Shown piece by piece: positions 3,960-38,696 of a stretch of 64,000 bases of DNA. The DNA comes from Ephemerocybe angulata. Taxonomy: Eukaryota; Basidiomycota; Agaricomycetes; Agaricales; Psathyrellaceae. A program made the position numbers and the translations under genes. The stretch is from assembly GCA_013368325.1 (NCBI GenBank), contig JAACJK010000163.1:992001-1056000 (forward strand), given 5' to 3'. The notes under the pieces are model-generated. The model was not told the DNA's origin. It saw only the letters and a program-made list of their open reading frames with translations, and made no database searches. Position 1 is the first letter of the stretch, and each line of letters starts with the position of its first letter.

Positions 3960-4002
3960 ATCCGGGTTCACTAAAGCCCCATCAAGATGGGTGATCTGGG
4001 CC
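3960..4002 (+). repeat. Left 43-bp inverted repeat of the composite element
   Basis: It begins ATCCGGGTTCACTAAAGCCC and ends GATCTGGGCC. Its reverse complement is found without mismatch at 38654-38696. Just inside are further short palindromic pieces around CCCAGTTGGG. It lies 100 bp upstream (gene sense) of the isolated TET/JBP catalytic exon, inside what would be the preceding intron. Confidence 0.9.
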
Positions 4003-4189
4003 TAACTGGGCCCAGTTCTGTGTCAAATCTTGATGGCCCAGTTGGGCTACCGGACACCGCCACCAGGCGTAGGCCCCGGTCCCGTGGTCAAAGCCCGTCG
4101 GACTCAAATCCGACGGCGGTCGGACGTCGGTACGATCCTCGAAACGGACTGTGTGATTGTGAAAATACGTAGAAAATAGCTACAGTCCG

Positions 4190-5059
4190 TTACTCCTCCT
4201 GTGTATCACTAATGTCCAGCTCCGCATGGTGTGCATAAACAACGTGATTCAGCTTCTCCAGGGCACTCAAGCTCAAGATCCTGGTCCGGACGAGCTTCTC
4301 ATGGGCAATCAGGAGCTCGTTGAGCACGGTATTCATGATCCCGATGTGCTCATCGACGAACCCCAACACAACGATAACGGCCTCGGCATCGCGCAAGTCC
4401 CATGGGCTTGGGTTCTTGGCTTGGACGTTGGCAGAAGAGCTCCCCGCCGACGCCCCCGCTGACGCTGCCGCCCCCGCCTTAGAGGACCCTGCCTCCCCCG
4501 CCTTAGAGGACTCCGCCCCGAGCGATCTCCCCGCCGACCCTGCCGAGGTCCCCGCCTTACTGGGCTCTGCCTCAAGCGCCGTCTCCAAACCCACTGCCGT
4601 TGGAACCCCACTTGCATCCTCAACCCTTTTCTTCTCCTTCCCTTTGCCCTTCTCCGATCTTGTGTGCTTATCCTTCCGCGGCTTGGGATCCGGCGGGGCG
4701 GGGTCGAGTTTGGTCGGAGCGGGAGCGGGCAGATCGGGGGCGGGAGGAGCGGAAGCGGAGGGGTTCAATGTGTTGATCACGGCCCAGAAATCGGTGATCC
4801 CCATGGTAACTAGATCCAGATGAGAGGTGCGGAGCATCGAAAGGCTGCTGGACGTACCTGGCTGGGAGCCGTCGGGATCATCGATGTCCATGTTTACATC
4901 GTCAACCGGCTCGGTATCTTGAACTTCTACATCGTCGACCGGCTCGGTACCTTGATCGAATGCTTGGATTCAGCAATGCATTAGAGAAGGTAACGAATAC
5001 TCACCTTTCTTTTTCTTCACCTTCAACTTCCTTGGCCTTACTTTCCTCGAGCTTGACAT
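4190..5059 (-). CDS. Small Ala/Ser/Pro-rich protein with NLS-like start, divergent to Cys6-cluster gene B
   Basis: Three exons on the minus strand: 5059-5005, 4950-4858 and 4809-4190, with GTGAGT and GTACGT donors. Exon 1 encodes MSSSRKVRPRKLKVKKKKG, a strongly basic nuclear-localisation-like start. Exon 2 has a tandem TEPVDDV repeat. Exon 3 has a Pro/Ala linker, a Lys-rich patch, SSKAG repeats and a C-terminal helix (about the last 80 residues, NPSPWDLRDAEAVIVVLGF onward) that looks folded. No known domain is recognised. It is divergent from the Cys6-cluster gene starting at 5237, about 180 bp away, the same arrangement as 12737-13410 versus 13641. The shared position suggests a conserved partner, possibly sharing a bidirectional promoter. 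Confidence 0.55.
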
Positions 5060-5236
5060 GGCGGTTGGTGGTAAAGGGCAAGCAAGCATCCGAGCTGAGC
5101 CCGAAATTGGGAATGGACCCGCACGTGATGCGAAAGTTCGACCCGGCGGGATCAAACCCCGTGATGCGAAAGTTCAATCCGGCGGGATCAAATCTCCGGC
5201 GGCAATTGCTTTTCTTTCACAACTACAATCTCCTCC

Positions 5237-8200
5237 ATGTCGACCTCGAAGAAGCAGCCATCCGCCCAGGTGAATATGTCTCCAGACCCTCGCGTAAGCG
5301 TTCGAGAGGCAGCCACCGCCCTCAACAGCGCCCTCATCGAAGCCTCCACCACCTGGAAGGCCCCTTCGGAACCGGGACAGGCTCATCCGTACCTGGTGGA
5401 AAAACTCCTCTTCCTCTGGGCGCTTACAGTGAGCATTCTGCCTTTTTTCGTTCTTGTCATTAACTAACATTCTAATATTCTACAGGATAAGTTACTAAAG
5501 GAACTTGGGCAGCTCACGCGCGGCAGTGGGGACTCCTACCAGTCCATGGGCATCACTGGCAGAGTCATGGCCTGGATGCAAGAGCTTGCCAAGCCAGCGA
5601 CGACGCTCAAGGATCCGGGGGCCGCGCTCGACCTCGGTATGTTCAAACGACAACCGTACCCACCATCGTCCGTCAAACTCGCCAGTCCGACCGAAACGGC
5701 ACCGGGTCCAAACAGCGGGAGGAGTCTCAAGGGTAAGGAGAAAGAGGTGTTACCGGCTGAAGGGAGCAGCGAAGGTGAGGATGGGGGAGATAGTGAAGAT
5801 GAGGAAGGGGGAGAGAGTGAAGATGAGGATGGATCGGAGTCTAACTCCCAAGCAGAGGATGAGTTTCGACCTGCGAAGGACGATGACCCAGAGGAGGAGT
5901 CCGAGGAAGATAGCGAGGAAGAAGATGGTACGTCTCTGAGTGCCTTCCAGGGAAATTGCTACTGATTCAATCCTAGAAGGTGACGATAACATGGTCGTTG
6001 ACGCCGGCGCTTCGACAAAGCGAAAAAGGTCTCTCGTTGTCCCGGCCCCCGTACCAAAGCGGTTGAAGCTCGAGGCTCAACCAACTCCCGCCGTTTCTTT
6101 CCCCAACCCCACCAGTACCATCCCTGGCTGGATACCTCCGAACGAAGTAAACCGCGAATACTCTGAGCTGGAGGGGGTGGGGTACGTATTCGCGGAGAAG
6201 TGCCGAAAATGCCTTGAGCGTCAGTACGACTACTGCTACGTGAACCTGGGCGACAGGCCCCTGGAACCCCATCCCAACCCCGGGAGCGCTTGCGCGACTT
6301 GCAAGAGGCAGAAGGGGAAGTGCGAGAAGACGTTGACGCCTAGGCCACGTGGACCTTCAGTTGCTATTACGGTTGGGGGAAGCAGAGGGCAACAGGGAGA
6401 CGATGATCAGAAGCCGGCGAAGAAGGCGAGGAAGAGCCAAGCTGGCCCAGTACGTGAACCCAGCTGGGATGACCTTCATTCACCTGGTGGTACACTAACA
6501 CTTTACACCCCTTGTGGCAAATTCAAGTTATCGGATGAGGCCATGGCTGCTGCAGGCGCCATATCCCACCAGTCAACGTCCGCCGGGAAGGAAAAGGAGG
6601 GGGGAAAGTCCGACGGGAAGGAAAAGGAGCGGAGAAGGTCCGCCGGGAAGGAAAAGCAGGGGGAAAAGGCCGACGGGAAGGAAAAGGATCGGAAAGGGTC
6701 CGACGGGAAGGAAAAGGAGCGGAGAAGGTCCGGCGGGAAGGAGAAGGAGGGGAGCAAGTCCGACGGGAAGGAGAAGGGAGGTAGCAAGTCCGACGGGAAG
6801 GAGAAGGGAGGTAGCAAGTCCGACGGGAAGGAGAAGGATGGGAGGAAGTCCGACGGGAGGGAAAAGGAGGCAGGGACATCCGACAGGAAGGACAAGAAGT
6901 CCGGCGGGAAGGACTCTCCTCGGAAAGGGCCCGTCGGGACAGTCTCCGTCGGGACATATTCGGTTGACCCGTCCGCGGCAACAGCGTCCATGCGAGCCCC
7001 GAGAACCCCAAAGCCAACCAGAAAGGTGGACCCACTACACAGTGGGGACGTATCTGGTGGAAGCGGGTTGGAGGATCGGGTGAAGGGACTTTCGGAGCAC
7101 AGGCAGAGGATGGATGGGGAGTTGGCGGATGTGAAGGGAATGTTCGAGGCTGTGAAGTTGGCAGCGGCGGGAATCATGCCTTTGACGGACCGGGTCACCG
7201 CCCTTGAGGCGGGTATGGAGGAACGGCAGGGAGAGGAGGGCTCGGCTGGTCAGGAACTCAAGAAGAAGGTCCGGGATTTGGAGGTCCGGATTGACAACTA
7301 CAGTACCATAGCCGGCAGTGACACTCAGAGGCTGGGTGATAGGGTCAAGGCACTGGAAGACCTCACTGTGGAAGGCAGTACGGATGAAGGGAGCGACGAC
7401 GACCAGGAGGGCGCCGTGAAGGAGGAGGTCAAAGCTCTGGCGAAGTCGGTGGAAGAGCTGTCGTCAAGGGTTGGTGCGATCGAGAAGATTGGGGGTCGGG
7501 TCGAAGCGTTGGAGACCAAGGTCAAGGAAATTCCAACTAGGGCAGCTGCGAGGGTGAAGGAGCTGGAGGACAAGATCGCTCGCCAAGAAGCACAACTCCA
7601 GGAGGCTCAGGCAACTTGGGCGAGGCAGGTGGAGATCTTCAAGGGGGAGATGGTTGGCCGTATCCGGGCGGTGGATCTGGACGCTGACGCAAGGTATAAG
7701 GCTCTCAGTGAGACTTTGGCGCAACAGAGTACCACCCAGGCCGCCATTATGGAAAAGATGGCCATACCAAACCTGGTACCCGCCACCTGGACTCCTACAG
7801 CTTCAGTCAGGGAAAGCGGGGCAGAAGGGACCGGGAACCCAGAGGAGCTCAGGTTGATGCGGGATGAGGCGGAGGAGTCCGGCGGGAACACGGAGATGGA
7901 CTTTGGAGGCGGACCGGCGGTATCGACTCCGACTACGCCATCCGACGGAAGGAGTCCGGAGTGGTTCGGAGTTGTTCCAACCGCCGGGGCGGTAGAGGAG
8001 GCTCCTGCGAGTGGAACTTCGAGTTCTGCCAGACGGATGGAGTTGCCCGCACTGGAGGTCACGAATCCAGATCGGTCGACTCACGTCCAAGATCCCAGCA
8101 GCCCACTTACCCCTGCGCCCGAGGACCCGGTACGAGAAACGGAGAAAAGTCCCCAGGGCAAGGCAGCTGAAAAGAAGAAGCGAGGTGGAAAGAAGAAGCA

Positions 8201-8288
8201 AGGCTCCGCGGTTCCTAGCCGAGTTCCACCAGGAAGAGCATCAAAGGCTGGCGGCCCTGGTCCCAACACAGCGGTCAATCCTTCGTGA
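5237..8288 (+). CDS. Cys6-cluster coiled-coil protein, copy B
   Basis: Exons 5237-5428, 5486-5927 and 5977 onward; a further in-frame 78-bp intron at 6450-6527 (GTACGT, CACTAAC branch site, CAAG) is likely. The N-terminus is a short helical domain shared with copy C, then an acidic Glu/Asp/Ser tract and an NLS-like TKRKRS. The cysteine cluster is CRKCLERQYDYC and, 18 residues later, CATCKRQKGKC, resembling Zn2Cys6 with a long loop. Next comes a 30-bp tandem repeat encoding KSDGKEKE-type decapeptides (about 6580-6910), then several hundred residues of heptad-rich coiled coil (for example RVKALEDLTVEG, RVGAIEKIGGRVEALETKV), and a basic C-terminus. It runs convergently toward the Lys-rich gene at 8465-11597. 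Function unknown; a DNA-binding scaffold is inferred. Confidence 0.72.
6580..6910 (+). repeat. 30-bp in-frame tandem repeat (SDGKEKE decapeptides)
   Basis: About eleven copies of a 30-bp unit around GTCCGACGGGAAGGAAAAGG lie inside copy B of the Cys6-cluster gene. The unit length keeps the frame and gives a highly charged Lys/Glu/Ser decapeptide repeat. The unit contains TCCGACGG, the motif that is repeatedly expanded elsewhere in the 34.7-kb block. Confidence 0.9.
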
Positions 8289-8464
8289 AGTTCTGCCCCC
8301 TCCCTGCATTCACCATTCTGTACCCCTCTCCAAGTCTCTTTTGATCTGTGCATACTCATACCCGATATACGTCTCTTCGCAAATATATACCTTGTTATGT
8401 TATATGCAGGGATCGAGACCATACAGAAAATTTAAAGTCATAAAGGTATGTACGTTGGGGCACT

Positions 8465-11400
8465 TTATTCAGGGATGTATCTTTTAACAGGGACTCGTTG
8501 ACGTTTCTGAGACGTAGTTCCCCATTTCTGCAGATCGTCGTTGAGTTCTTTCCTTCGGCTGGGAGTGGTCAAGGGCATATCCTCCACGGTAAGATTCTTC
8601 TTCTTAGACTTCTCCTTGCCCTTTTCCTTCGAAGTAGACAAAGGTACATCCTCTTCGGGCACACCCTTCTTCTTAGACTTCCCCTTGCCCTTTTTCTTCG
8701 TTTTGGGCTTTACGGGGAGCCTATCAGCTACGTCTGACTCAGGTCCAGAGGCTGAGGTGGTAGCTTCCGGCATATGTTTAGCGTCCGCTGGAGTGACTTG
8801 GACGTGTACTGCCGGTGGTAGAATCTCTGCCGGAGGAGTCGGGTGTGGGTGGGATTCAGTTGTCACGTTATCCAGGACCTGCTTTGGGGTGACCTGGGCA
8901 GGGTTCATGGCAAATTGAAGTGCCATATTCCTGACATCCTCGGGAAGTGAGTTCCACTTTAAGAGAGTGTCTGCAGTTGCTACCGGTTGGCTAGATGGAG
9001 TGATTGGGCTTGGAGGCAATGCACTGAAGGGGAGGAAGGTAGTACCGTCTCCGTTTCCCGCCGGAATGGTTGACCCCGACGGGAGGAGTCCGACCGTCGG
9101 GTGGGACGACTCCGACGGACCCTCAAAGACCGACGGGTCCGTTCTGTCCGACTCAATTGTTGACACCGCCGGCTTTCGTTCCTGCGGGAGGGGTGACCCC
9201 GCCGGGACGAGTCGAACGGTCGGATGGGACGACTCCGACGGATCTTGAAAGACCGGCGGGTCTGTTAGGTCCGCCGGACTTGCTGTTACCGCCGGGTTCA
9301 GTCCGTCCGACGGGGTATGACTTTCCTGAGGGAGGAGTGCCGAAGGATTGGGGACTTTCTTCCTTGGCTTCGGCCTGCTGCTCACACCCTCTTCTCCTAA
9401 CAAATCTTCTGTTGGCACGCCAAGTTTTTCAGCATCTTCCACAAGGACTGCACTCCTAGTGGAAATCCTCTCTGCTCTCCTGTTTCCTGCAGGAGCCTTG
9501 ACCTTTGTTGCTACCTGTGCCTTCCCCTCCTTCTTTCCTGCCGGAGCCCCGGTCTTGGTTGCTACCTGTGCCTTCTCCTCCTTCTTGCCTGCAGGGGCCC
9601 CGACCTTGGTTGCTACCTGTGCCTTCTCCTCCTTCTTGCCTGCAGGGGCCCCGACCTTGGTTGCTACCTGTGCCTTCTCCTCCTTCTTGCCTGCGGGGGC
9701 CCCGACCTTGGTTGCTACCTCCGCCTTCCCCTCCTTCTTTCCTGCAGGAGCCTCAACCTTGGTTGCCACCTGTCCCTTTCCCATCTTCTTTTTTCCATTT
9801 TTCACCCTTGACTTCCTTTCCTTTCCATCCTGCTTCACACTGCTATCTTCATTTAGTTCACGGTCAGGCTCCTCCTCCTCCTGCAGCTTCCTTGGTTCCC
9901 GGACAACAGGACTGCCTTTAGAATTGGGGTAATGGTGAAACTCGAAGACCATAGCTTCACCGTCAACCTGCCTCCGATACCAGTAATAGAGGAGCTTCTC
10001 TTGCTGTCCAACATTGATTTTGGTAGGATCCACAAAGTAAGGGGAAAGATCGTCTGGAAGATATTCCTCATTGACATAGTCTCTGATTGATGACTGCAGA
10101 ATTCGCCATGGGGGGTGAGAGGCATCGGGATCACGTCCTGATGCCAAAGCTTTGAGGGGAGGTAAGATTAATGCATTCCTAAGGAGAGCAATGAACGCAC
10201 CCAAATGAAGTGTAACAAAAGTACGAATGAGGTGTGGATAATATTCCCATCGAGGGAGACCCTTTGGTAAGACGGATGGGTTTGGAAGGATGGGTTCCAT
10301 GTAGCTATTGAGGGGGAGACTTAGGAGAGGCTTTCCACGTCCCCTTAGTTTTGGGGTAGGGAGGCCAGCTAAGTTATCTTCAAATTCCCCTTGAATGAAG
10401 GTGGACCAATTCCGAAATATGCCTGAATCCCTGATGGCACTCCTGTACTCCCGAACAAAACGTCTTTTCCCCAACTCCGCCCCACAGTCTACAAAGGCTG
10501 AGCAGGCACTAGGAAGTGAGAAATGTGCCAAAGTACATTTCGGAATGGAGGGGACTTACACGAATATGGTTCCTTCCCCGGGCCTTCAAATCCCACCAAT
10601 ACAGCCATCCGGACTCCCATGGACTTGTACATGTTATGAATGAACTGACGGACAACTGGGAGAGCTCGGTCAAATGCAAGCCTAGGACATTCTCTATAAA
10701 TCCATGCTCTTCAAAGGATAGTTTAATTGACGTACTGCCTTTGAACTTCTGGGGGGGGTCCTTCCTTGTTCCAATTGGCGGCCGTATCCTGCATCTCCTT
10801 AACCTCCTCCTCGGTTAAGAGAGAAAGTTCGTAGCTCAATGCTTTCTGGAACATGTGAAATGGTGTAACCCGAACGACTGGCATGGCAGCTTTTCCCTTC
10901 TTTGTATTCCTTCTCCTTCCCTTCACATCCTTGCCTTTACTTCCATTCTGCCTCCCATCCTTCGGATTCTTCCCGTCGGGCTTTCTTCCTTTCCTGTCCA
11001 AGTCCGAGGAGTCCGACTCCGACTCCGACTCCGAGTGTGCCTCCGAGTCCGACTCTGACTCCGAATCGGAGTCCGAGTCCGAGTCCGAGTCCGAGTCCGA
11101 TTCCGCCAAGTCAAGGGAGCCATCATCAATGTCCTCCATGCTAATCTGGCACTTTGTATGGGCCTCAAATAGCATCTTCTGTCTGACTTTCACCCTCTCC
11201 GGATACATCTTGTAGAATACCTGCCTCACTGACCACTTCTTCTCCCAGAGTTCTGCACCCAACCTTTTCCGGCAACGAATACGAAACCACAGGACCACAT
11301 TCTGTGGAGAACGGTCACTGACTTTTATGTTTATAGAGGAATCTCCCAACTCACGTTGATTAAACCAGTTCTATCCCCAGTCCGAATTTTTCCCCCCTCC

Positions 11401-11597
11401 CTCTCCACTTTTTCTCGGATGCCATCCAAGAAGTGAAGGGCAACATTGATTGCAAACTCCCGCCGCTGGTGCTTGGGCAGCTCCTTGTAGTCCAGGACAT
11501 TCAGTAGATAATAGCACAAAATAAGCGGGAAATATGGGTGTAAACTATCAGTAATTATGTGGTAGGTGAGGAGGTAGAGGTCAGGCAAGAGAGGCAT
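8465..11597 (-). CDS. Lys-rich protein with conserved N-terminal region, copy 1 (HMG-like motif)
   Basis: Exons on the minus strand run from about 11597 to the stop at 8465. A first exon ends at GLIN, a second (about 11290-10730) carries an SD/SE repeat and LTEEEVKEMQDTAANW, a short middle exon has MGVRMAVLVGFEGPGKEPYS, and the last exon starts near 10512. The conserved order VxxWF...KKW...ExxKxR, LSxEDxxxYxxxAxxW, MGVRxxVL, then NSYMEPILPNP, matches the gene at 17122-20580. The LTEEEVK...AANW segment resembles the last helix of HMG boxes; that is weak. The C-terminal half is a histone-H1-like Lys/Ala/Pro tail with a 51-bp repeat (9488-9790). The start is uncertain because a minisatellite begins just upstream. 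A chromatin-binding role is inferred. Confidence 0.6.
9488..9790 (-). repeat. 51-bp in-frame tandem repeat in the Lys-rich gene
   Basis: About six copies of a 51-bp unit encode the 17-residue unit APAGKKEEKAQVATKVG on the minus strand. The copies are nearly identical, so expansion is recent. The peptide is Lys/Ala-rich like a linker-histone tail. Confidence 0.9.
11001..11103 (-). repeat. (TCCGAC/TCCGAG)n hexanucleotide repeat coding Ser-Asp/Ser-Glu
   Basis: A 6-bp repeat inside the second exon of the Lys-rich gene encodes alternating Ser with Asp or Glu on the minus strand. Such acidic SD tracts are common in nuclear proteins. The hexamer is again a TCCGA core. Confidence 0.85.
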
Positions 11598-11605
11598 ATG
11601 GAAGG

Positions 11606-12590
11606 GGGGAGGTCGGGTAGGTGGGACTAGGACGGCCGGAGTGCGGTAGGTGGGGTGTGGACGACCGGGATGGGGTAGGTGGGGTGTACATGTCCGACGT
11701 CCGGGATGTGGTAGGTGGGGTGTAGGCGCCCGGAGTGTGGTAGGTCACCGTAGATGGGACGTCGACGTTCGGAGTGCGGGAGGTGGGGTGTAGGCGCCCG
11801 GAGTGTGGTAGGTGGGAGGTGGACGTTTGGAGTGCGGTAGGTGGGCTGTCGACGTCCGGGATGGGGTAGGTGGGGTGTAGGCGCCCGGAGTGTGGTAGGT
11901 GGGAGGTGGACGTTTGGAGTGCGGTAGGTGGGCTGTCGACGTCCGGGATGGGGTAGGCGGGGTGTAGGCGCCCGGAGTGTGGTAGGTGGGAGGTGGACGT
12001 TTGCAGTGCGGTAGGTGGGCTGTCGACGTCCGGGATGGGGTAGGTGGGGTGTAGGCGCCCGGAGTGTGGTAGGTGGGACGTGGACGTTCGGAGCGTGGGA
12101 GGTGGGACGTCAACGTTCGGAGTGCGGGAGGTGAGGTGTAGGCGCCCGGAGTGTGGTAGGTGGGACGTCGACGTTCGGAGTGCGGGAGGTGAGGTGTAGG
12201 CGCCCGGAGTGTGGTAGGTGGGACGTCGACGTCCGCGATGGGGTAGGTGGGGTGTCGACGTTCGGAGCGTGGTAGGTGGGACGTGGACGATCGGGACGGT
12301 GGAGGTGGGATCCAGACGCCCGGAGTGTGGTAGGTGGGGTCAGGACGATCGGGACGATGGAGGTGGGATCCAGACGCCCGGAGCGTGGTAGGTGGGGTCA
12401 GGACGATCGGGACGGTGGAGGTGGGATCCAGACGACCGGGACGATGGAGGTGGGATGTGGGCGCCCGGAGTGTAGTAGGTGGGATGTAGGCGCCCGGAGT
12501 GGGGTAGGTGGGACGTAGGCGCCCGGAGTGGGGTAGGTGGGCTGTCGACGACCGGGACGATGGAGGTGGGGTGTAGACGACCAGGATGGG
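11606..12590. repeat. About 29-bp minisatellite, 1 kb, with 87-bp higher-order period
   Basis: Units of 28-30 bp of the form GGTAGGTGGGxxGTxGxCG followed by a variable YCGGA block are repeated about 33 times. Three unit types alternate to give an 87-bp higher-order repeat between about 11800 and 12080. The block lies just upstream of the first exon of the Lys-rich gene. The same units occur as the reverse complement at 29154-30002. Open frames through it are repeat artefacts. Confidence 0.92.
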
Positions 12591-12736
12591 GAATCTTAGT
12601 TAGGAGAAACTTCCTCCTACCCCAGGACCGTACCAGTACGGATGGGGAGACTGTGGGGGCATATAAGACAAACTTGAAAAACAGTATCATTGCAGTACGA
12701 AAGATCAATCCAAAGGGAAACAACATTCATTTAACT

Positions 12737-13410
12737 TTACTTTAAGTCCTCCCGGAGCTTCTCCGCAGACAAGTGAATGGAAATAGCCCTGTGAAGAGCT
12801 CCAGCTTGTGTGTGAAGCATAAGCTTCATCTTCTCGCAGTGGGAGTAATGCGTGAGGAGGCAGTGATAGGTCCAGCGGAGGTGGCGGATATGGTTGTTGA
12901 AGATTTCCGTCGAGACCATGGAGGCGTCGGAGCCAGGGTCAAAGACACCAGCCCACCTTTCATCAGCCATGGGGGGCTGGGCTGACACTTTGGGAAGGGT
13001 ACTCCCCTTTGAGTTCGTGGTGGCGGTGGTGGCCGGGGGTGCAATGTCTGCGGGGCAGGACGTGCATCAGCATGGGCAATCGCATCCTCCGCCAGACCTA
13101 TGGCGGTGTGACATACCGGATTCGCTCCCTGATTGAGAGACGCTCTCACTCCCCGACTCACTTTCGGAATCATCCATCGCCCCGTCCATAGCAGCTTTGC
13201 GAAGCTTCTCGTTGACCGCATTCAGGCCCTGACCTGTAATGACCTTCGGACGACCTATCGACACGGGCTGTGGGTTTTCCTCATCCTCGGAACCTAGGGA
13301 AATGGGAAGGGGTTGGATTCGAGCGCTCTGGAGATAGAGAAAGGGCTTGGAAAGGGCGTACCGGGTTCCGAGTCAGAGAACTGAACAGCCTCCCACATTT
13401 CTTTAGACAT
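12737..13410 (-). CDS. Small acidic/Ser-rich protein, divergent to Cys6-cluster gene C
   Basis: Three exons on the minus strand: 13410-13362, 13293-13117 and 13047-12737, with donors GTACGC and GTATGT and acceptors CTAG and CGCAG that keep the frame. The start MSKEMWEAVQFSDSEPGSED is acidic. A Ser/Glu repeat (SESESGSESVSQSGSES) follows, and the C-terminal 80 residues form a helical region rich in His, Trp and Leu. No known domain is recognised. Its position mirrors the gene at 4190-5059: minus strand, about 230 bp upstream of a Cys6-cluster gene. Sequence similarity between the two is weak, so kinship is judged mainly from position and size. Confidence 0.5.
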
Positions 13411-13640
13411 TGCGAGGAACGTGGGGGCAGAGTGGAAAGGGGCGTTGTGATAGAACCCTGGGCCCCAAAACCGAAAAGGGCAATGTCGCGTGACATCAGA
13501 CCGGATCCCTACCGGACCGGCACGTGGTGCGGGGTACACGCGGGGAAAACGTGGGCCGGTGTAATGGTTCTGGACGCCGGTTCGTCTTGGGAACCCCTCT
13601 TCTCTCTATACCCCTACCTTTGCCTTGGGCATTGCGGAAT

Positions 13641-25656: not shown

Positions 25657-25758
25657 ATTAGAACATATGAAAACGGATGTATTTTGATTGATCAAATGCT
25701 GATAACACCCGTTGATTCGCGATTGCGCTTACCGTCCTTCCTCCCTTCCTCCCACCTC

Positions 25759-27497: not shown

Positions 27498-27595
27498 CCC
27501 CTTAGTTTGTAAATCGCAGCAAGGAATGTGGATTTTGGAAGAATATCATATCTATGGACTACAAAGTTTCACCCCAGGCGCCAATCACCGCAAAA

Positions 27596-29015
27596 TCATT
27601 CCAATCCCGGCGTACCCTCCTTCCCTTTACCCTTCCACCCTCCCGTTGCACCAAGATAGTATTCCCGGTAACTCTGGATTGTTGGTAGAGTCTCTGCGTC
27701 CTCGGATTTGTACCCTCCGTGATTCTGCACCACGTCCGGACGGAAGAATGAAACAAGGCAGTACCGTTCCCCCTCAACCCTGGATGCTCCGTGCCTGAAT
27801 GTATGTGAGTTCAAGAATACGGCCGTCCCGGGATTATAGCGGAACCTCATCCCAAGTCCATCGATCTCGAAACGCCCGTTCGCATAGTTTCCGAAAGTCG
27901 TGACCGCGTCGAGATAAAACCTACCTCCTTTCCTATCCTTATGCAGTGGTGTCTCCCGGTTGGTGATCAAGGACACTGCAGTGAAAGGAGACGACCATGT
28001 TCCAAGGAGGTCCGCGACCAGTTCCGGCTTGGAAGTGCAGGAGGGGTCGGCATAGATTGCCTTCCATGAATCCATTGCAGTCTCAAAGAGAGCCGGGTGG
28101 ATGATTGCAAGGACGCCTCCCATAATAGCATTGTACTCCTGGATATCCTCAAGGAAACTTACGTTGGCCGGGTCGTTCATTGACTGCGACGGAGTGGGCT
28201 GGTATTCGGGGGGCTGGATAAGAAGGGCATCAGGGGCAATAAAAAAAGGGAGGTTTCATACTCACCGGATGCGCTTGGCTATACCAGCATGGGCTGAAGC
28301 ATACGCAGCCAGGGTTGACCTGACACTCCTCGGGCTCCCGGAAGAAAAAGGCATTCGTTCTCCAAGGACTTGACCGGCTCCCGTCGAGTGGGAGACCCTT
28401 GGCTGAGTCTCCATCCAGTTGCACGATGCTCTGTTCAACAGCAGCCTACAATGAAATCATACGTGTGAGGGAGGGAGAAGGGGGCGCTGTAATATAATAT
28501 TCTCACCTGTCTTCGCCTGGATATCAACCCGGGCAGATACCAGGCGAGCACCTTTCCCTCCGAGTCACTAACATGACAAGGAACCTCCACGAGAGTCGGT
28601 TGTTCGTTGACCCTAGGGCTGACTGCGGGTGAGAAATCAGGATTCCCCGCATTAGTCTTCCCCTTGGGAGCATCCTGCGCAGCGATATATTCTTCAAGGG
28701 TCCATTGGGTTGAATCTGGAAAGGAGATTGATATTCAGCGAGGTTAGTGGTTAATTGGTACACCGTAGGGGGCCACGAACATTCATTCCGGCCCCTTGCC
28801 GCCTCATAAACTGTATCGACTGCCAGATAGCAGTCTTCGAGGAGTTCCCGGCTGAAGTGCTCTGGAATGAGCACCCTTGTAGGATCGGTGTCGTCTAACC
28901 GAGTGTGGAAGAGAGACCGCATGACATGAGCGACAGCTTCACAGAGAGCAAGTCCTTGTGAAGGACACTCCAATGAGCCGTCGTCATCGAGGGTAGGGGT
29001 AGGAGAGGCCATCAT
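27596..29015 (-). CDS. TET/JBP-type 2-oxoglutarate/Fe(II) dioxygenase, intact copy
   Basis: Four exons join in frame: 29015-28781, 28715-28507, 28445-28266 and 28213-27596, giving about 413 residues. The N-terminal half has a conserved segment DSEGKVLAWYLPGL and, in exon 3, WRTNAFFF...NPGC...WY. The last exon is the dioxygenase core: HxD in TPLHKDRKGG, the distal His in FRHGASRVEGER with the following Arg as likely 2-oxoglutarate ligand, and CLVSFFRPDV strand. TET/JBP enzymes oxidise 5-methylcytosine or thymine in DNA; fungal copies have been linked to KDZ elements. Exon 1's donor (GTTCGT) is weak but required by frame and homology. It is convergent with the KDZ-side genes. This is the only one of the three loci without a visible lesion. 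Confidence 0.82.
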
Positions 29016-29153
29016 GCCAGAATTCTCAAGAACCGACCCGTTTTATGTACGCACCGCATTCTTGCAACAACCCGCTATCACCGCAGCACCTCCGAACATT
29101 TTCCGCGTGGTTCTGAAACCTAAATCCACGCTACATCCCTTGGTATTCTCCTC

Positions 29154-30002
29154 ACACCTACCCCACTCCGGGCGCCTACATCCCACCTCCACCGTCCCGA
29201 TCGTCCACGTCCCACCTACCACGCTCCGAACGTCGACACCCCACCTCCACCGTCCCGATCGTCCACGTCCCACCTACCACGCTCCGGGCGTCTGGATCCC
29301 ACCTACCACGCTCCGAACGTCGACACCCCACCTCCACCGTCCCGATCGTCCACGTCCCACCTACCACGCTCCGAACGTCGACATGCCACCTACCCCATCC
29401 CGGACGTCCACGTCCCACCTACCACACTCCGGGCGCCTACACCCCACCTCCCGCTCTCCGAACGTCGACGTCCCACCTCCCACACTCCGAACGTCCACCT
29501 CCCACCTACCACACTCCGGGCGCCTACACCCCACCTCCCGCTCTCCGAACGTCCACCTCCCACCTACCACACTCCGGGCGCCTACACCCCACCTCCCGCA
29601 CTCCGAACGTCGACGTCCCACCTACCACACTCTGGTCGTCCACCTCCCACCTACCACACTCCGGGCGCCTACACCCCACCTACCACACTCCGGGCGCCTA
29701 CACCTCACCTCCCGCACTCCAAACGTCCACCTCCCACCTACCGCACTCCGAACGTCGACATCCCACCTACCCCATCTCGGCCGTCCTAGTCCCAGCTCCA
29801 CCACTCCGGGCGCCTACATCCCACCTACCACACTCCGGGCACCCACATCTCACCTCCATCGTCCCGGTCGTCTACACCCCACCTCCATCGTCCCGGTCGT
29901 CGACAGCCCACCTACCCCACTCCGGGCGCCTACATCCCACCTCCACCGTCCCGATCGTCCTGACCCCACCTACGTCGTCCCGGTCGCCCACCCCTACTTA
30001 CC
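29154..30002. repeat. About 29-bp minisatellite, inverted relative to 11606-12590
   Basis: Units such as CCCACCTACCACACTCCGGG with CGCCTACA or CGTCGACG cores are the reverse complement of the units at 11.6-12.6 kb. About 29 units are present, degenerating up to about 30125. The block lies upstream of the intact TET/JBP gene. A long open frame runs through it (29014-30138) but encodes only the repeat and is not a gene. Confidence 0.92.
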
Positions 30003-30217
30003 ACATTCCTTTTCCCTACCACCCACCTACCGCACCCCGACCGTCAAGCCTCCCTACCTCCATCTTCTGTTCCCAACTCCTGCGCTCCGCACGTCTCCTT
30101 ACTTCCCACCTCCCACGTCCCGGACGCACTGCAATTGACCTCCCACGTATATTCTATGCCACTGTAACAATGCAGCTGCTGCGTAATATACGTGTATTTA
30201 CATCTGTCTTTCTCGCG

Positions 30218-30445
30218 CTATATACGTCTCAACCCTATGGCAAGTAGTGTGTAGTCGTCCTTCCTATCATCCATGTATTCTAGCTGAAGGGTGGTGAATT
30301 TCGAGTCAAGGGCCTCAGCAGGTCCCTTCGGCTGGTCCTCGGAATCCGATAGCCCGTCATCTTCGTTTTCTTCTCCTTTAATCTGGCCACCGGCGAGGTC
30401 TGGAGTATTAGAGTTTCTTTCCTTGACTTTGGCAGGGAGAGACAT
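30218..30445 (-). CDS. Possible small acidic protein, divergent to KDZ gene 2
   Basis: A 75-codon frame starts at ATG 30445 (MSLPAKVKERNSNTPD) and contains an acidic stretch EENEDDGLSDSEDQP. It lies minus-strand about 190 bp upstream of KDZ copy 2, the position that small acidic genes hold before the Cys6-cluster genes at 5237 and 13641. No intron or domain is evident. It may be an exon or chance; confidence is low. Confidence 0.3.
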   Translation of the reverse strand: MSLPAKVKERNSNTPDLAGGQIKGEENEDDGLSDSEDQPKGPAEALDSKFTTLQLEYMDDRKDDYTLLAIGLRRI

Positions 30446-30632
30446 TGCGTCAAGTAAGTGAAGAGGAACAAACAAGATAATGACCCCAATATCAGACCAA
30501 TATCAGAAAGGGTCCCAGCCGGATCTTTGGAGCATATGATAAATCTGGGACGTTGTCTATTTCAGGCTGATCAATCGATAACCACCACTGTTCCCGCAAG
30601 AAGCCTCTCCTGTCTTCCTCCACCTAACCACC

Positions 30633-33600
30633 ATGGTCAAGCATAAGATCGGTAAACGCAAGGTCACCGAACTCGATATCTCTGTCAAGACCACAAAACG
30701 GGGAAGACAAGTTTCCTCCGTTGCGGTTCCTGCCGAGAAATCCCTCTACCGACCATCGAAACGGAGGAAGATCATCCCGGTTATCCCTGCAGACAACAAA
30801 GCACAGCGGGGGTCCAGCAGCTCTTCCTTACCAGAGCCCCTCTACTACGAATCCATCTTTGAAACCATTGATGGGAAGACGTCCCAGGGAAAGGTCAGCC
30901 ATATTGAGGCTTAAGAAGCAGGAAATGATCTGATTATCTTCCTTCCAGACAACCCATGACTATCTCAAGGCATGGCTTGATCAAGGGAAGTGTGGGGCAT
31001 ATCTGGACAGGCTTCTCATCACCGAAGCAATGCCCAAACCCACATGTGTGCGGTGCTTGAAAGGAGTAGCAACTTGGAGATGCCTGGATTGCGGTAGCCA
31101 GCCTCAGTACTGCGGAGTGTGCTGCCGGATTTCCCATCGGCGGACGCCATTTCACCGGGTTGAATACTGGAACGGAAGGTACTTCCAGCCTGCCTGGCTC
31201 TGGCAGGCGGGGACCATGATATGCCTTGGGCACCAAGGGCACATGTGTCCCGAGTACCAGAAAAAGATGTCTGATCTGGAGAAACGTTCACTGAAGGTAA
31301 ATGGCTGCCTCGACTCCCCTCCCCTGGAGGAGGATGATACCACATTTGGGGCAAAACCAGCAATCACTCAGCTCGGATCCGGGCGCTTTGTTCTCTTCGT
31401 GCACCTCAATGGTTTCCATTACCTACCCGTCTACCCCTGCCTCTGTGGTGAAAAGGTCCGGCTACCTGAAGATGAACAATTTTTGGAAGCTGGCTATTTC
31501 CCTTCTACTTGGACAACAATTGAGACAGTGTTCACTCTGGAACTGCTCAAGGATTACCATTTAACCAAGACCGAAACAAAGATGTCAACGGAAAACTACT
31601 GTGATATTCTGAAGCGCAAGACCAATTTCGCCTTTCCTTCCAAAATTGTAAGTTCTTCTTTACATCCTTGTATTCTAAGCTGACAATAGTTGGGTTGTAG
31701 GACAGAGCTCGAGAGCTTTCACGGGTCTGGCAAATGTACAACTATATGATTCTTCTCAAGAGGCATGGATTTGGTCATGAAGGGAGGGGAAGGAAACCTG
31801 AAAAGGGGGAGCTGGCTTTATACTGTGCAATATGCCCCCAGCCCGGAATAAACCTACCTTCAAATTGGGAAAGCCTAACAGAGCTGTGAGTTTGCCAATC
31901 TTCACCCATACTTTGATGATTAAGGGAGTCATAGATGGCTTTATAAACGATATATAGTGATAGACGGCAACTTCAAGCTTCATCATCTCATAATCCGTGG
32001 TCAGGATCGGGGCATCTCCTTGATAGCTGGGGCTGCTTATATGATCGAGAAGGCCTACCAAGACAAAGTCCTCAAAAACGCCCCAGAAAGCAAGCAGGTA
32101 AGTTTCTGGCATGATAGCTAAACCAGTGCTAATAGGATCTCTGTTTTATAATGCTACTCATGAACTAATGAACTATTCCCTGTGTCATCGGAATCGGCGA
32201 CACCGTCGGATCGACACCGTCGGATCGACACCGTCGGACGGGACGGACGTAACTATGTCTATCCGTCGGATCGTTACCGTCGGACGGTATGGTCGGAACT
32301 ACCTCCATCCGCCGGACCTTATCCTCGGACCTTACGCTCCGCCGGTTTCTCTCTACCGTCGGAATCCCTCCGTCGGGAAAACTCAGGCTGCGACGTGCTC
32401 TGAATACAAGGCTGTCCAGGATAAGGATAAGATGAAGAAGGGCTATGATGCATCTGGGTTATTTGGGAGTGCCTGTGCCCGTCATGGCTGCTTTTGCGGT
32501 GGAGCTCTCGTGGACATGCAGAAAGGAGAAAGGTGAGTGCCGCCACCTTACAGAGGACTGTGCTTGAACTCACTATATTTCCAGACAGGCAAATGCAGAC
32601 CTGTCAGTAAACGAAGCCTTCGACACCACCAATGCAGCTGGGACACCTGGTGCTTTGCTGGCCTACGATATCAACTGCCAGTTTTGTATACATTTCCGGG
32701 AGAGGATTGATAAAGCCCATCACCTTACCATCCCAGCGGACCTGGATATCACGTACCTCATTGGACTCTTCCATATTCATGGCCATGGCGAGATATGCCT
32801 GCCTCGCTTTGCCAGTACCTTTCTCCCAGGTGCTGGGATGGCCAGTGGGGAGATCATTGAATCCCTCTGGTCTATACTCAACCAAGCAGCAAGGATAACC
32901 AAAACGATGACTCCCGCTCACCGACGGGAAATGATCGATGCATGCGTAACAGACATTAATTGGAAGAAGCTGGTATCAGTTGGTCTGTGCTTTTCCATCC
33001 TGTCCTCGGCATATGCTTATTAGAATTACTTTCAGATACCTACATCACCACCCAACTGCTTAAAGCTAGGACTGAGAAGGAGAAGGCAGATGATGACTTT
33101 GCTCTACTCAATGACACAGTGAGCCCCGCCCAGAAGGAGCTCTGGCAGGAAGAAATGGAGACCGCAAACGACGAGAGGAAGGGGTCTGACGTTTCATCCA
33201 TGGATTCATATCTTCCGAAACTTGAAAAAGGTAGCTATCCGTTCTTCGAACTGAGAATGGTAGGCTCACTAGGGTTAACTTCTTCTTTTAGTTAAGAACA
33301 CAAGAGCAATTCGATCTAGCCTCATGGCTGAAGAGCAGAAGACAAGGAAAAATGTGGGGCTAGCAAACTGGGTTGCAACAGGCATGGAAATTCAGGAAGC
33401 ACAGTCTGTCTTTCTCTCTTGCATCTCAGGACAGTTGTACTAATATCGGAAATAAGATCAGCATTACGTTCAACTGCAATGGCAATTAGAAATGCAACGG
33501 AAGGGTCCGTAACAGACCTGGATGTACAGAAGAAACGGGAGGTCCTCATCAAGCAAATAGACAACTGGTATAAAATCGCGGATACTCTTTTCCCCGGTTT

Positions 33601-34509
33601 GGACCCGACAGCCGAGACATCCAAGATGACGGATAAACAAGACCCCTGTGTTTGCGAGAACGAGTGCCAATGCCCACCACATATTCCAGATCCAGACGTC
33701 GACTTTGAACTGGCCGAAAATATAGTCCTTTCCCTTCCCTCTGACTTCCACGATTTACCCGAGGAGCTTTCAGCAGCTGCAATCACAGAAGGGGAATTGC
33801 GGGTAGCCCAGGCAAACGAGGCACTCGATACCCTTCGGAGTCTCATCACGAAAAAATCAACATACTACCGGGCCAACAGGGAACTGGCCAATGGAACGAG
33901 AGACCGTACAAGATCGTACGACAGTATCAATGCCTTGGAAAAGCTCATGGTTGCAGCCAAGAGAACATACGCAAAGGCTAGGTCCTCCTTGGAGCGGCTC
34001 GGGCTCCTTCCTGAACACCCTCAATTCAAAACCCTTCAAAAATCAGACACGAAGGCGGTAACAGCAATTTACAGCCCAAATGCTAGGGGCCAGAGGAATG
34101 AAGGCCTTTCTTGGATTTGGACAAGCCTAGGTATTGACCCTACAGAGGAAGGGTATTTAGCAGAAGGTGAGCTTTGTCAAGAAAAAACCGTCCTCTCCGC
34201 TAATTGGCTGTAGTCTACCGGGTCAATTGGATCAGGGCCAAGTCCAGGGCAGACCGTTGGATGGAGGAGGTAATCATCCTGGAGCATGAGATGGAATGGT
34301 TTGTTCGTTTCTGCTTATACCGGCAGAGGAAATGTCTGGATTGGGCACAATCAAACGAGGAGGGTGTGTCCGCCGGACATATGGCATACGCATTCCGACA
34401 GGCGGACATGTGGGCCCGCCGGGCCTCCGCGGGAAAGAAGCAGTTCATGGAAAAATGCGGGGTTAGGGTTACCATCGAAGATCCGATTATCAATGATCCT
34501 ACAACTTGA
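30633..34509 (+). CDS. KDZ transposase with N-terminal CxC2 zinc cluster, copy 2
   Basis: Start ATG 30633 has an excellent context (ACCACCATGG) and a basic N-terminus MVKHKIGKRKV. The exon chain parallels copy 1. CxC2 cluster: CVRCLKGVATWRCLDC and CGVCCRISHRRTPFHR. KDZ core: VIDGNFKLHH, GLFGSACARHGCF with MQKGER, LAYDINCQFCIH and GAGMASGEIIESLWSILN, so the catalytic acidic residues are all present. The C-terminal region NWYKIADTLFPGLDP and a Cys patch CVCENECQCP correspond to copy 1. One intron (about 32101-32384) is enlarged to about 285 bp by CCGTCGGA-rich repeats. The two copies share architecture and motifs but are clearly diverged, so they are not a recent duplicate. It probably acts in the nucleus on element ends. 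Confidence 0.88.
32200..32375. repeat. CCGTCGGA-motif cluster inside a KDZ intron
   Basis: Within one intron of KDZ copy 2 the octamer CCGTCGGA and one-base variants occur about ten times in 175 bp, several as contiguous CGACACCGTCGGAT units. The corresponding intron of copy 1 is only about 60 bp and lacks them, so the cluster was added later. The flanking donor GTAAGT and acceptor ACTCAG are intact. Confidence 0.8.
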
Positions 34510-34567
34510 ACTTGAACCACCATCATCCCCTACTTGTACACTCTTTCCATCCATTTTTATAGCACAA

Positions 34568-35656
34568 ATGCTTGAAGACCTTGCCATCCTCGCTAAATTA
34601 AACGCCCTTACTCCGAACGGCATGCAATCGGTGTTGTCGTACTCCGCAAGCCGCCTTCGGGCTGCGCTGTGCATCCAGGCCGTTGTCCCGATGCCTGAGG
34701 AGTACATGGGTACATACCACGACCACCTGAAGGAAGAGCTGGTATGTATTTCTCAATTCAGAGTTCTATTCTGACCTGTCTGTTAGTTTGCCTATTCCTT
34801 TTTGCTCGGTTCAGTCATGCTGCTCCATCCCAACCCGAAAGACCTCACAATTTCGAAAATCGCTACGACGGCGAGTCTGCTATACATCCGCGGCACCCTT
34901 GTGGATAGAGAAGAGCTCAGGCGTATTGCCAATACCTACGGTAGCGCTGGTGATCACATCCTTGTGCATTACGAGGGCGAATGGTGGGAGAAAATGGACG
35001 AGCCCGTGCAGGCAATCCATCCGAGGGACGTGTTTGGCTGGTGGGAAGTACAGAAACACAGGATCGCCCCGGTCTTCCCCCGGGTCCGGAACGTCATCAA
35101 CCTCGCCGAGATGAAGATCGAACAGCTAGACCAGGCCCGTGACCTCGCCGTCTCATCCGTCGAGCTTATGGATTCCCAGCTCGCGACCAGCGCCGAACGG
35201 ATTGCCACACTCACCCGCCGGCTCAACAATGCGAAAAGACTCCGCGGGGAACTCAAAGGCCTTCTCGCCGACAAGGAGGACATGACGATCCATCTCGGAA
35301 AACTTCACATTCGGAGCATGACGGAGGAACTGCCGGCCAATTTAACGGGCGATTTAACGGAGGACCTGATTCGACCCCTGGAACCTGAAGTGGTCCGCGG
35401 CGAACAGACAGCACGAAACAAGCATGACAGGAAGCAGAAACGAAAGGGTAGCGTCAATGAAGCAGACAGCGTGAAAAAGCCGAAGACCGTTTCATTCCAC
35501 GACGACCTTGCCAACCAGATCAATGCCGCCGCAGACGCGCAAGCCGCGGAGGAAGAAGAAGATGAGCAGGCGGCCGTAGAAGCGGGCAGCGGAGAGGAGG
35601 ACTCCAGTGAAGGTGATGATGATGGTGGAGAAGATGACAGCGATGACGACCAGTAG
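34568..35656 (+). CDS. Small two-exon coiled-coil protein, family member 4 (acidic tail)
   Basis: Exon 1 34568-34741 (MLEDLAILAKLNALTPNG) contains the family signature LSYSASRLRAALCIQ and ends HLKEEL at donor GTATGT. Exon 2 34787-35656 opens FAYSFLLGSVMLLHP and has the WW motif EGEWWEKM. A long heptad-rich coiled coil follows (IATLTRRLNNAKRLRGELK), then a basic patch NKHDRKQKRKGSVNE and a very acidic tail. It is the closest match to member 1 at 1785-2684, which has the same exon phases. It lies 58 bp after KDZ copy 2. The basic plus acidic ends suggest a nuclear or histone-binding protein, but that is inference. Confidence 0.74.
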
Positions 35657-35747
35657 TTAACCATGAGTCCCTGTCCTCTATCTCCATGCGAGAATTTGTA
35701 TTTTATCTCCACTATGCCTGTATTGATGTATTGCTCTCCTGTCTCCG

Positions 35748-36090
35748 TCAAGTCCGTCGGACTCACACACCGTCGGGTGAAGCACTGTCTCCTGCCGCGA
35801 GTGTATTTCATCCCGCCAACCGTCCCCATTCTACCCGCCGGGAGCTTGGACCACAAATTGTGAATGCGACCCGACGGACTTAGACCGCAGGGGCTCTATC
35901 CGTCGGGACCCTTCCGCCACCGGGTTACACCCCGGTTTGTCTGCCACCCGCCGGCTTGTGGTTCAATGCGACCCGACGGGTTAGCCCGCAGGAGTTATGT
36001 CCGCCGGGTCCTACCCCGCTTTAGCCGCCACGCCGTCGGAGTGTGGCCCAATATCGGATGAGTGTAAACCCGTCGGACTGTTTGTGCTGG
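35748..36090. repeat. CCGTCGGA / CCGCCGGG motif cluster, intergenic
   Basis: The intergenic stretch between two small two-exon genes holds at least ten copies of CCGTCGGA, CCGACGGA, CCGCCGGG and similar octamers, partly in two related blocks of about 85 bp (GCGACCCGACGG...GGTCC). There is no gene in this interval. The same motif family fills 4110-4140, 9080-9320, 32200-32375 and 37640-37750. Confidence 0.75.
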
Positions 36091-36195
36091 AGGACTCCGA
36101 CAATTTGAAGCTGGCGTTGGCAGGTATTGATCAGTGGATTAGTCATTGATCCACGGATCTTCATTCCCGCACAGCATTCTTCCTTCTTGACCACC

Positions 36196-36890
36196 ATGGA
36201 GACATCCACAATTTCTCCCCCCTCTATTGATATCTGCACTACAGCAGAATGGATGTCCTTGCTGGGCTACGTGCATGGCCGAATGCACAAACTCCTTGAT
36301 TTCTTCCAACTCGAATGCGATACTCCCTACCATCAAGAGAATTGGCGGACTTGGGTTAGTGTTTTTAGCAATGAACTTGTAGGTTTAAGTTCCTGTGATC
36401 CGCTGCTCCCACAACCTGACGGGCCATCCAGAATATTGGTCTCACCCTGCAAGGATTGATGACAGCCAGCGATCTTGGAAGGAGGCCCGGTACCTTCTAC
36501 CAGTCCATCATCAAGGAGGTCGTCATCCACACTGATGACTGCAAAGGCGTCTGGTTTGCCCTAACCGGTGGACTGATTACCAGTCCCGTGTACCCCGAGG
36601 ACGAACTTCTCAGATCGGACAGTAACCGCTGGTGGGAAGATAAACCATATGCTACTATTTCTGACGTCGCTCGGCTTTGGAGGGAAGGGGGAGGGGCTTT
36701 GAGGGATGGTGGAAATCGGCCCAGGGATGAGAAATCACGGGGTATAGATGAAGCTGACTTGCAAGGTGTCTTGAAGGGATTGATTGAAGGTTTAGATGCC
36801 TCGATCGCCAATGTTGAGGAGAGTAGCCGTGACGTAGAGGAAGCCTATCAAGCAGCATATCAAGTTCGAAAAGCTTGGAATAGGTTGTAG
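36196..36890 (+). CDS. Small two-exon coiled-coil protein, family member 5
   Basis: Exon 1 36196-36378 starts METSTISPPSIDICTTAEW with a good ATG context (CCACCATGG). It ends ...VFSNEL at donor GTAGGT. Exon 2 36432-36890 opens NIGLTLQGLMTAS, carries the WW motif SNRWWEDK and ends with a helix of repeated Glu/Ala heptads (EADLQGVLKGLIEGLDASI). It ends 31 bp before the stop of the convergent TET/JBP gene, so the 3' UTRs of the two must overlap. No known domain. The slot matches member 3 at 26750. Confidence 0.72.
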
Positions 36891-36920
36891 TATATCAGTA
36901 TAACAGCCGATCGATGTAAT

Positions 36921-38508
36921 CTATGCCGCCGGGTGAATGGATGCCAGGAGATCGGCAAGGAATGGGGGTGAAATCTCTGCATACTCAGTTAGAGCTCCCC
37001 AACCCACAGAAGGCTTAATAAAACTAGCAATACATATCCTATCCCCCTCTGTTCTTGCCGCACCATGCTCCAGGAGGTAGCCAGGGATAATAAAGCTTGT
37101 CCCTGGATTGTAGCTAAACCTTCCACCTAGAAGTGGGACCTCCAATACGCCGTTTCCATATGTCCCAAAAACTGAGAGTATATCTTGGAGAAACTTGCCA
37201 CCACGGTTATCACGATGGAAGGGGGTCTCTCTGTTGCAGATGAAAGCAAATCCAGTGAAAGGTGAAGTCCAGTACTTGAAGGCTTCTTGTGTCAATTCGG
37301 TATTTGACGTTTCAGCCCTACCTGATGACAGTTCTATGAGAACTTGCAGTTGCATCTCATACAGCTTTGGATTCACAAGGGAAAGGAGGGCGCCAATAAG
37401 GGCATTTGTTCCCGATAGCATGTCAATCAGCTCCATGCCGCCAGCCCGTTTCTTTGAGTTCAGGGATGCGGATGGGCCGGGAACTGAAATCGGAGGCTAG
37501 GTGTTGAATCAATAAACTTTCCGCAAGTTAGAGGCCTCTATCGCTTACCCCATGACCTTGCTCATACCAAGCGGCAGCCAGGTTTACGAGGCCGGGAGGG
37601 ATTTGGCCATGATCCGGATTTGCAAAAATTCCTGTTTCCGTCCGCCAAGCGCCCGACGGACGTTGCAAGTCCGCCGGATCTTGAGAGTCCGCCGGAGCTT
37701 GAGAGTCCGCCGGACGTTTATAATCCGACGAATATCCAGAATCCGACGGACACATCCGAATCACGGATTTCGGTAATTTGCCAACGGTCTTGGCTGCGTC
37801 AAAAACGGCAGACTGCCACTTTATGAGGATTGCAGTGGCATAAAATATGATTCAATGGACTCACGCATCTCCGAGATGTGAAAATATTGGGCAAGTACCA
37901 CGCAATGGCCTTACCGGCAGAGTCAACGAAGACCATTGGGGCATCCTTGAAATTTCTAACAGATTCCGGAGCCTGAAACGTCCTCCGCAGGTAGTCTTCT
38001 CGAGTCCCTTCTTGCAGGGGGATAGAGAGACCTTCAGCAACATCCTCAAGGGAATAGGAGAGATGGACTAAAAAAATGCAATCAGAAAGAAGAACAAGGC
38101 TGTGCTAAAAAACCTGGTTGACCGACCGGGGTGCTTGAGTGCTTGAAATAGAACTCCCACAATTGTCCCTATTTCCCCTTGGACATCCAAGGGAACTCTT
38201 GAGGGCGTTACAGCAGGAGATGGACACGAGCCTTTTTGAGCCCAATATAACTTCGCCAGTCCAGCGTATTCTTGCAACGTCCTGAGACCTGGGGGTAGAT
38301 CTTGGGACATTGCAGCTGCTGTAGTTAAGAAGAAAGGCTCCATGCATTGTTTGGGGGTCACAATATACATCCGTGGGGCTTGGGGCAACATGAGGCCAAA
38401 TTGATGGTCCGACACATGGTCCGCCGGAAGTGGCAAATCCCCAAAATTAGGAACGACGGAATGGCCCGCCTGACCCGCCGGCTCATTTTGGCTTTTCTGC
38501 CTTTCCAT
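36921..38508 (-). pseudogene. TET/JBP-type dioxygenase with frameshift, inner right copy
   Basis: The exon plan follows the intact copy: 38508-38127, 38067-37863, 37812-37549 and 37496-36921. The last exon is a complete dioxygenase core with HxD in TPFHRDNRGG, distal His in LLEHGA and the GDR Arg. Exon 2 carries an extra AG (CT on the coding strand, near 37920) relative to the paralogues. It shifts the frame just before the conserved WYLP segment and leads to a stop, unless the in-exon donor GTAAGG there is used and the segment is lost. Exon 3 is lengthened by about 20 residues of ADSQ/PAD repeats made from CCGGCGGA units. It may still make a shorter protein through alternative splicing; otherwise it is a recent pseudogene. 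Confidence 0.65.
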
Positions 38509-38511
38509 CTC

Positions 38512-38696
38512 CCGGCGGGTTTATTCCGCAATGTGTTTCCCAGCTGGGCTATTGATCTTGGGCCAATTCACCCCAGTTGGGCCATCCCACATTGGTCCTT
38601 CCTTATTCCCACCTGGGCTTTCCACTATGATTGCTCCCACAGGTGCCCAACTGGGCCCAGATCACCCATCTTGATGGGGCTTTAGTGAACCCGGAT
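38512..38696. repeat. Palindromic right end of the composite element, including the 43-bp inverted repeat
   Basis: The last 43 bp (38654-38696) are the exact reverse complement of 3960-4002. Just inside, several copies of CCCAGNTGGG and a degenerate inverted copy of the terminal sequence (GCGGGTTTATTCC near 38513) give a foldback, MITE-like structure of about 185 bp. The left end has similar but shorter sub-terminal palindromes. Confidence 0.75.

Follow-up and report, generated by a model that had tools for sequence, protein, structure and literature searches.

Elements that combine a KDZ transposase with a TET/JBP gene are the closest described counterparts of the DNA considered here, a 64,000-nucleotide stretch (hereafter the window) on contig C117 of the agaric Ephemerocybe angulata. 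As far as the available parts of the sources go, TET+ Kyakuja elements of the KDZ superfamily in Agaricomycetes are characterized by CA..TG termini without terminal inverted repeats and by target duplications of 7 bp; their TET enzymes are proposed to relieve methylation silencing (Kojima 2025, PMC12730594). In Cryptococcus neoformans, the elements KDZ1-KDZ3 measure ~9-11 kb, have terminal inverted repeats of 139-241 bp and make fresh insertions with target duplications of 8 bp (KDZ1) or 4-8 bp (KDZ2 and KDZ3) (PMC12810828, again in its available part). The giant Starships of Pezizomycotina, as described in the excerpts at hand, rely on a tyrosine recombinase as mobilising enzyme.

A first-pass annotation of the window interpreted a block bounded by perfect 43-bp inverted repeats as a single 34.7-kb mobile unit, far exceeding an ordinary KDZ transposon in size and loaded with accessory genes. 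The analysis presented here leads to another view: the block very probably consists of two nested TET+ Kyakuja (KDZ)-type DNA transposons lying within a third TET/JBP gene. It is a real mobile family that had been wrongly sized and bounded, ordinary in kind and useful in detail. This corrects the attractive idea of a giant cargo element in a basidiomycete, and it supplies ends at single-base precision, together with target duplications and empty sites, for two TET-carrying KDZ families. Less expected were the construction of the element ends and a recurring four-gene core, which are reported as new without any claim that they are unpublished.

Copies and true ends of the outer element

The left arm (3960..4002, +) and the right arm (38654..38696, -) of the 43-bp repeat are exact reverse complements, far above chance, as originally described. 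A search of the E. angulata assembly (58.67 Mb in 232 contigs) with at most three mismatches returned 10 matches, 6 forward and 4 reverse, while a control in which the 43-mer pattern was read backwards gave 0 matches in the same 58.7 Mb. All 10 matches fall into five pairs and none is unpaired: the pair in the window, C22:387539/421136, C125:3696743 with C232:287875, C47:76529/80316 and C117:3248917/3252744. Three of these pairs belong to full-length elements enclosing KDZ and TET/JBP genes (one of them split over two contigs), the other two to non-autonomous copies of ~3.9 kb. Contigs C125 and C232 each stop within the element; they are counted as one copy because they overlap over 5,893 bp (3 mismatches, 20 gaps) and show the same 7-mer in both outer flanks.

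Comparison of the copies moves the ends outwards. Identity between them begins at 3923 and stops at 38733, that is, 37 bp beyond each arm, so that the 43-bp repeat is subterminal and not terminal; the breakpoints predicted at 3960 and 38696 were not found, the real ones being 3923 and 38733. The outer element as it stands (3923..38733, +), delimited by the ends of its identity to C22, C125/C232, C117 (3.25 Mb) and C47, measures 34,811 bp, and 16,047 bp after subtraction of the insert and of one copy of its 7-bp duplication. Its left terminus (3923..3959, +) opens with CACCTACTG, the first bases being the same at the left end of all five copies, and its right terminus (38697..38733, -) closes with GGGGTG, the last bases being likewise shared by the five, with one internal mismatch in the two short ones. 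The termini in the five copies are CACC..GGTG and hence of the CA..TG type; the outermost 37 bp on the left and on the right have only CACC in common.

Beyond these ends the flanks of the copies are unrelated. Target duplications of 7 bp are found in three of the five copies (CTCCACC at C125/C232, AAACCCG at the short C117 copy, ACATCTG at C47), one of 8 bp in another (CTTCTGAC at C22) and none in the fifth, which is the copy in the window. The repeat marks a mobile family, since it is always paired, its flanks differ among copies and duplications of 7-8 bp occur at four of the five. Could it instead form the ends of short elements, resembling miniature inverted-repeat transposable elements, that flank the genes by chance? 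Two copies are indeed short (3,902 and 3,862 bp) and without element genes, but single or closely spaced 43-mers are absent from the assembly, the 10 matches being five widely spaced pairs, and the interior of the full-length copies is 98-100% identical over long stretches; such an origin is hardly credible. In this respect the first-pass annotation was right, as no scattered, unpaired copies turned up.

The two short copies retain only the leftmost 202 bp (92%) and the rightmost 94 bp (96%) of the full element, with none of its genes in between, and these natural deletion copies narrow the minimal cis ends to ~202 and ~94 bp. Most of their interior (L019, L020) is built from repeats of ~14-160 bp, both tandem and inverted, that have no relationship to the full-length element. 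The claim that palindromes lie near the arms was also borne out. The palindrome CCCANNTGGG occurs seven times in the window, against 1.45 expected (mean of 20 order-1 Markov shuffles of the whole window), and five of the seven are <200 bp from the ends of the outer element: four in a right-end cluster (38539..38655, unstranded, at 38539, 38572, 38608 and 38646, all within 195 bp) and a fifth near the left end, at 4037. Proteins 91-97% identical to the open frames of the outer element are found in E. angulata strain DFP72, and by this similarity the outer family is present in that strain too. The window itself is assigned to an E. angulata strain, the E. angulata protein P0005 (D9611_011251) matching contig C112 at 100% over 49 residues and at 96% over the following 95.

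The nested element and the interrupted TET/JBP gene

A second element, of 18,757 bp, occupies 11493..30249 (+) and has ends CAGGACATT.../...AAGTAGTG; the insert starts with CAGGACAT and finishes with AAGTAGTG, giving termini CAGG..AGTG. C22 and C125 lack it at the corresponding position: when these copies are aligned to the window, position 11492 joins 30250 directly, with a 7-bp overlap. The overlap corresponds to the target duplication TGTAGTC, which occurs once in C22 and C125 but twice in the window (11486..11492, +, and 30250..30256, +). A 2,575-bp non-autonomous relative on C67 has the same two termini and a 7-bp duplication of its own, AAAGGTG, so that duplications of 7 bp are found in both copies of this family. 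Near its ends the inner element has arrays of 29-bp units, the right one (29063..30087, -) inverted with respect to the left one (11587..12600, +). The insertion falls within exon 1 of an outer-element gene, called gene B below, which is continuous in C22, C125 and the E. angulata proteins P0001 and P0002. The inner element is of a different family from the outer one.

These observations bear directly on the size of the mobile unit. The two KDZ and two TET/JBP genes reported between the arms are present, but they are divided between two elements, 11493-30249 being a separate insertion. A single 34.8-kb giant cargo element, in which two transposases and two TET genes had been captured and are now co-mobile, is very improbable, and as the ancestral unit it is contradicted. 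With both outer ends intact and a transposase gene on board, the composite would in principle be mobilisable; against this, the inner 18.8 kb is missing from both other full-length copies, the insert, which interrupts gene B, is delimited by ends of its own and by a 7-bp duplication, and searches of the assembly found no second copy of the whole composite. The unit is therefore one of 16.0 kb and not of 34.7 kb. The length of the C22 copy, 33,672 bp, was considered as support for a 34-kb unit and rejected: its extra length is accounted for by a 15.9-kb long terminal repeat (LTR) retrotransposon, together with a tandem repeat that has expanded by 1.7 kb. The retrotransposon, whose 666-bp LTRs are 99.1% identical and which is flanked by TATAT target repeats, lies between positions matching 8401-8405 of the window, and the similar lengths of the two copies are misleading because the C22 excess comes from this unrelated sequence.

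The outer element in turn lies within a third TET/JBP gene, absent from the first-pass annotation and split around the block. Its dioxygenase-domain exon (3248..3871, -), recognized by domain search and by alignment with CcTet, is to the left, and its upstream part (38734..39316, -), recognized by exon similarity and by colinearity with C112 and C18, is to the right. The left 973 bp and the first ~600 bp on the right match C112:484833-486091 and C18:734845-736157 continuously (66-72% identity), and the joined flanks are colinear with C112 across the junction, with one base missing. On this colinearity, the outer element is itself an insertion in the third TET/JBP gene.

The same data allow an origin by segmental duplication, or by ectopic recombination between copies instead of transposition, to be judged. 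The window copy has no target duplication, and the paralogous segments on C112 are rearranged, a sirtuin gene and another block being inverted relative to the TET gene; both points speak for such an origin. Yet the five copies lose similarity sharply at one and the same pair of positions, the flanks are unrelated, four of the five copies have 7-8-bp duplications, and the flanks in the window align in order with a single uninterrupted locus, a pattern that an exchange between two copies would not produce. Duplication or recombination, largely refuted for the family as a whole, is accordingly rated as very unlikely, marginally more so than the giant element, and transposition of two nested elements is retained.

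The surroundings of the third gene deserve a brief description. The neighbourhood appears rearranged between paralogous C117 and C112 regions, and a 2.9-kb segment (C117:979878-982790 versus C112:486239-489187, 93% identical) is inverted relative to the TET gene. To the right, the window contains a sirtuin gene of the HST3/HST4 type (39827-41542, -); E. angulata has several copies of the sirtuin, and in the tree six such proteins, drawn from two strains, group in one clade. It is not claimed as cargo of a third element, its C112 relative being inverted and ~6 kb from the TET gene. To the left, similarity search revealed a relative of another element gene, gene C (2061..2681, +). This sequence and a further relative at C117:989187-989708, also left of the third TET gene, have no KDZ gene near them among the matches listed, and are perhaps the remains of further elements. 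No tie was established between the third TET gene and the KDZ match at C117:972233.

Gene content and the recurring B-KDZ-C-TET core

The outer element begins with a left-arm gene, a 782-codon open frame (5940..8285, +) with related sequence elsewhere only at C207 (41-43%) and no Pfam match above the cut-off. Gene B follows on the opposite strand: its later exons (8468..11485, -) were delineated with P0001 and P0002 (942 and 910 amino acids), and the start of exon 1 (30257..30445, -, by alignment with P0001) is severed from them by the nested element. Residues 1-74 of P0001 align to 30445-30224 of the window, and residues 1-114 are unbroken in C22 and C125. Next come the exons of the KDZ transposase with CxC2 and KDZ domains (30934..34506, +), gene C (34568..35653, +, by similarity to E. 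angulata P0003 of 347 amino acids) and the TET/JBP gene (36924..37851, -). The inner element comprises a left-arm gene of 944 codons (14075..16906, +), with relatives on C75 and C97, a weak one on C116 and no Pfam match; a gene B relative (17125..19950, -; 27% identity to outer B, E 3e-7, and 25% to P0001, E 5e-17); transposase exons with B-box-like, CxC2 and KDZ domains (22340..25653, +); and a TET/JBP gene (27599..28445, -).

The KDZ domain (PF18758) is recognized at E 2.5e-25 in the outer and E 5.9e-29 in the inner transposase, with CxC2 upstream in both. For all three TET domains of the window, the best match of solved structure is CcTet (7vpn/8jkk; E 1e-28 to 1e-31); relative to CcTet the HxD motif is kept as HRD, HKD and HRD, and the distal histidine is aligned too. 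Genes B and C have nothing convincing in Pfam, and their structure predictions were too poor for fold search (mean predicted local distance difference test score of 32.7 for five gene B sequences and 43.6 for three gene C sequences). Tandem arrays lie in or near open frames at 44222-44660, 45481-46126, 6515-6934, 9432-9839 and 20769-21595, with units of 18, 35, 30, 51 and 39 bp, respectively.

Assembly searches gave 47 matches with P0001, 20 with the gene C relative at 2061-2681 and 18 with P0003. The arrangement of these genes was counted at 25 of 30 TET matches, namely those above the family cut-off, against 104 KDZ rows (N-terminal halves of the same genes excluded; the best 150 of 170 KDZ matches scored), with one row per gene B locus. 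The counts given here and below hold among the matches listed. A convergent KDZ gene lies within 12 kb of 19 of the 25 TET loci (chance, ~1%), and 17 of these 19 spacings are 3.8-4.6 kb; the single copy on C125/C232 is entered twice among the 19, being on two contigs. Gene B is found upstream of KDZ, on the opposite strand, at 15 of the 19 convergent loci, and gene C downstream of KDZ, on the same strand, at 11, or 14 when C66, C214 and C120 are added through the P0003 query. Six more KDZ loci without a TET match carry B or C. The order and strands of the core are B(-)-KDZ(+)-C(+)-TET(-).

We interpret the arrangement as a conserved core joined to a left arm that varies, the 782-codon outer and 944-codon inner frames being different and having their relatives at different loci. 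B and C occupy set positions next to the majority of the KDZ/TET pairs in this genome, so that two or more of the accessory genes would be genes of the element and not captured host cargo; the view of accessory genes as cargo is weakened to this extent, and is not borne out for these two. Two uncharacterised genes thus accompany transposase and TET at most such loci in one genome. Additional proteins, including an HMG-like domain, are reportedly mentioned by Iyer et al. in 2014.

Several observations weigh against the interpretation as two nested elements of this construction. The outer copy in the window has no target duplication (..GGCCCT on the left, GTTATACC.. on the right), although the four other copies have one, and the C22 duplication is of 8 bp, not 7. 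Six of the 25 TET loci have no such convergent KDZ gene; similarity searches of the assembly did not find gene C in the inner element, nor a gene B match at C97, C120 and C179. Many of the matches to gene C are weak, at 20-30% identity and with E values of 1e-3 to 1e-7, and matches also occur away from KDZ/TET pairs, for gene B at C75 and C117:16903 and for gene C at C18, C112 (twice), C117:989187 and C209. The C22 duplication is unremarkable, because live KDZ insertions show duplications of 4-8 bp (PMC12810828, in its available part).

Proposed mechanism and comparison with described systems

Each element would have moved independently by cut-and-paste, its own KDZ transposase acting on its ends. 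The outer transposase probably reads the 43-bp subterminal repeat together with the adjacent CCCANNTGGG palindromes, and not a terminal inverted repeat; cleavage would take place 37 bp outward at CA/TG with a stagger of ~7 bp, and the 3.9-kb copies may be mobilised in trans. The TET/JBP enzyme would oxidise methylcytosine on the element and so ease silencing, in the manner proposed in the available part of Kojima 2025 (PMC12730594). Genes B and C would be standing parts of the element. A bolder version, put forward tentatively and with doubt outweighing confidence, is that the TET+ Kyakuja of this genome are standing B-KDZ-C-TET machines, in which the fast-evolving B and C could be dedicated partners of the transposase or of TET (for instance by recruiting TET to the methylated ends of the element itself), the ends being read through family-specific subterminal inverted blocks (the 43-bp repeat with CCCANNTGGG, or the 29-bp arrays) instead of terminal inverted repeats. 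With the minimal ends narrowed and candidate partner genes named, the help that TET gives to these transposons becomes testable.

Among described systems, Starships resemble this locus only in the general notion of a big fungal element that carries accessory genes, so far as the excerpts describe them. The elements here are of 16-19 kb and have a KDZ transposase, and no tyrosine recombinase was found by Pfam in 29 scanned open frames inside the block, a set that takes in only some of the short exons. The likeness to KDZ1-KDZ3 lies in KDZ transposases with cysteine-cluster domains; these elements differ by their terminal inverted repeats, and no TET/JBP gene is mentioned for them in the available part of PMC12810828.

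The closest agreement is with TET+ Kyakuja, as partly available in PMC12730594. Both elements have a KDZ transposase and an AG-type, CcTet-like TET/JBP gene in a host of the Agaricales, both show CA..TG termini and 7-bp duplications at the family level, and neither has terminal inverted repeats, the ends being unpaired beyond CACC (outer) or CA (inner). Two features depart from the description given there, namely the perfect 43-bp inverted repeat located 37 bp inside the ends of the outer family and the inverted 29-bp arrays near the ends of the inner family. The recurring genes B and C are not among the TET+ Kyakuja features described in that part of the source either, and they are not claimed to be unpublished. 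Both elements fit TET+ Kyakuja at the family level, by gene content, termini and duplications rather than by a transposase tree.

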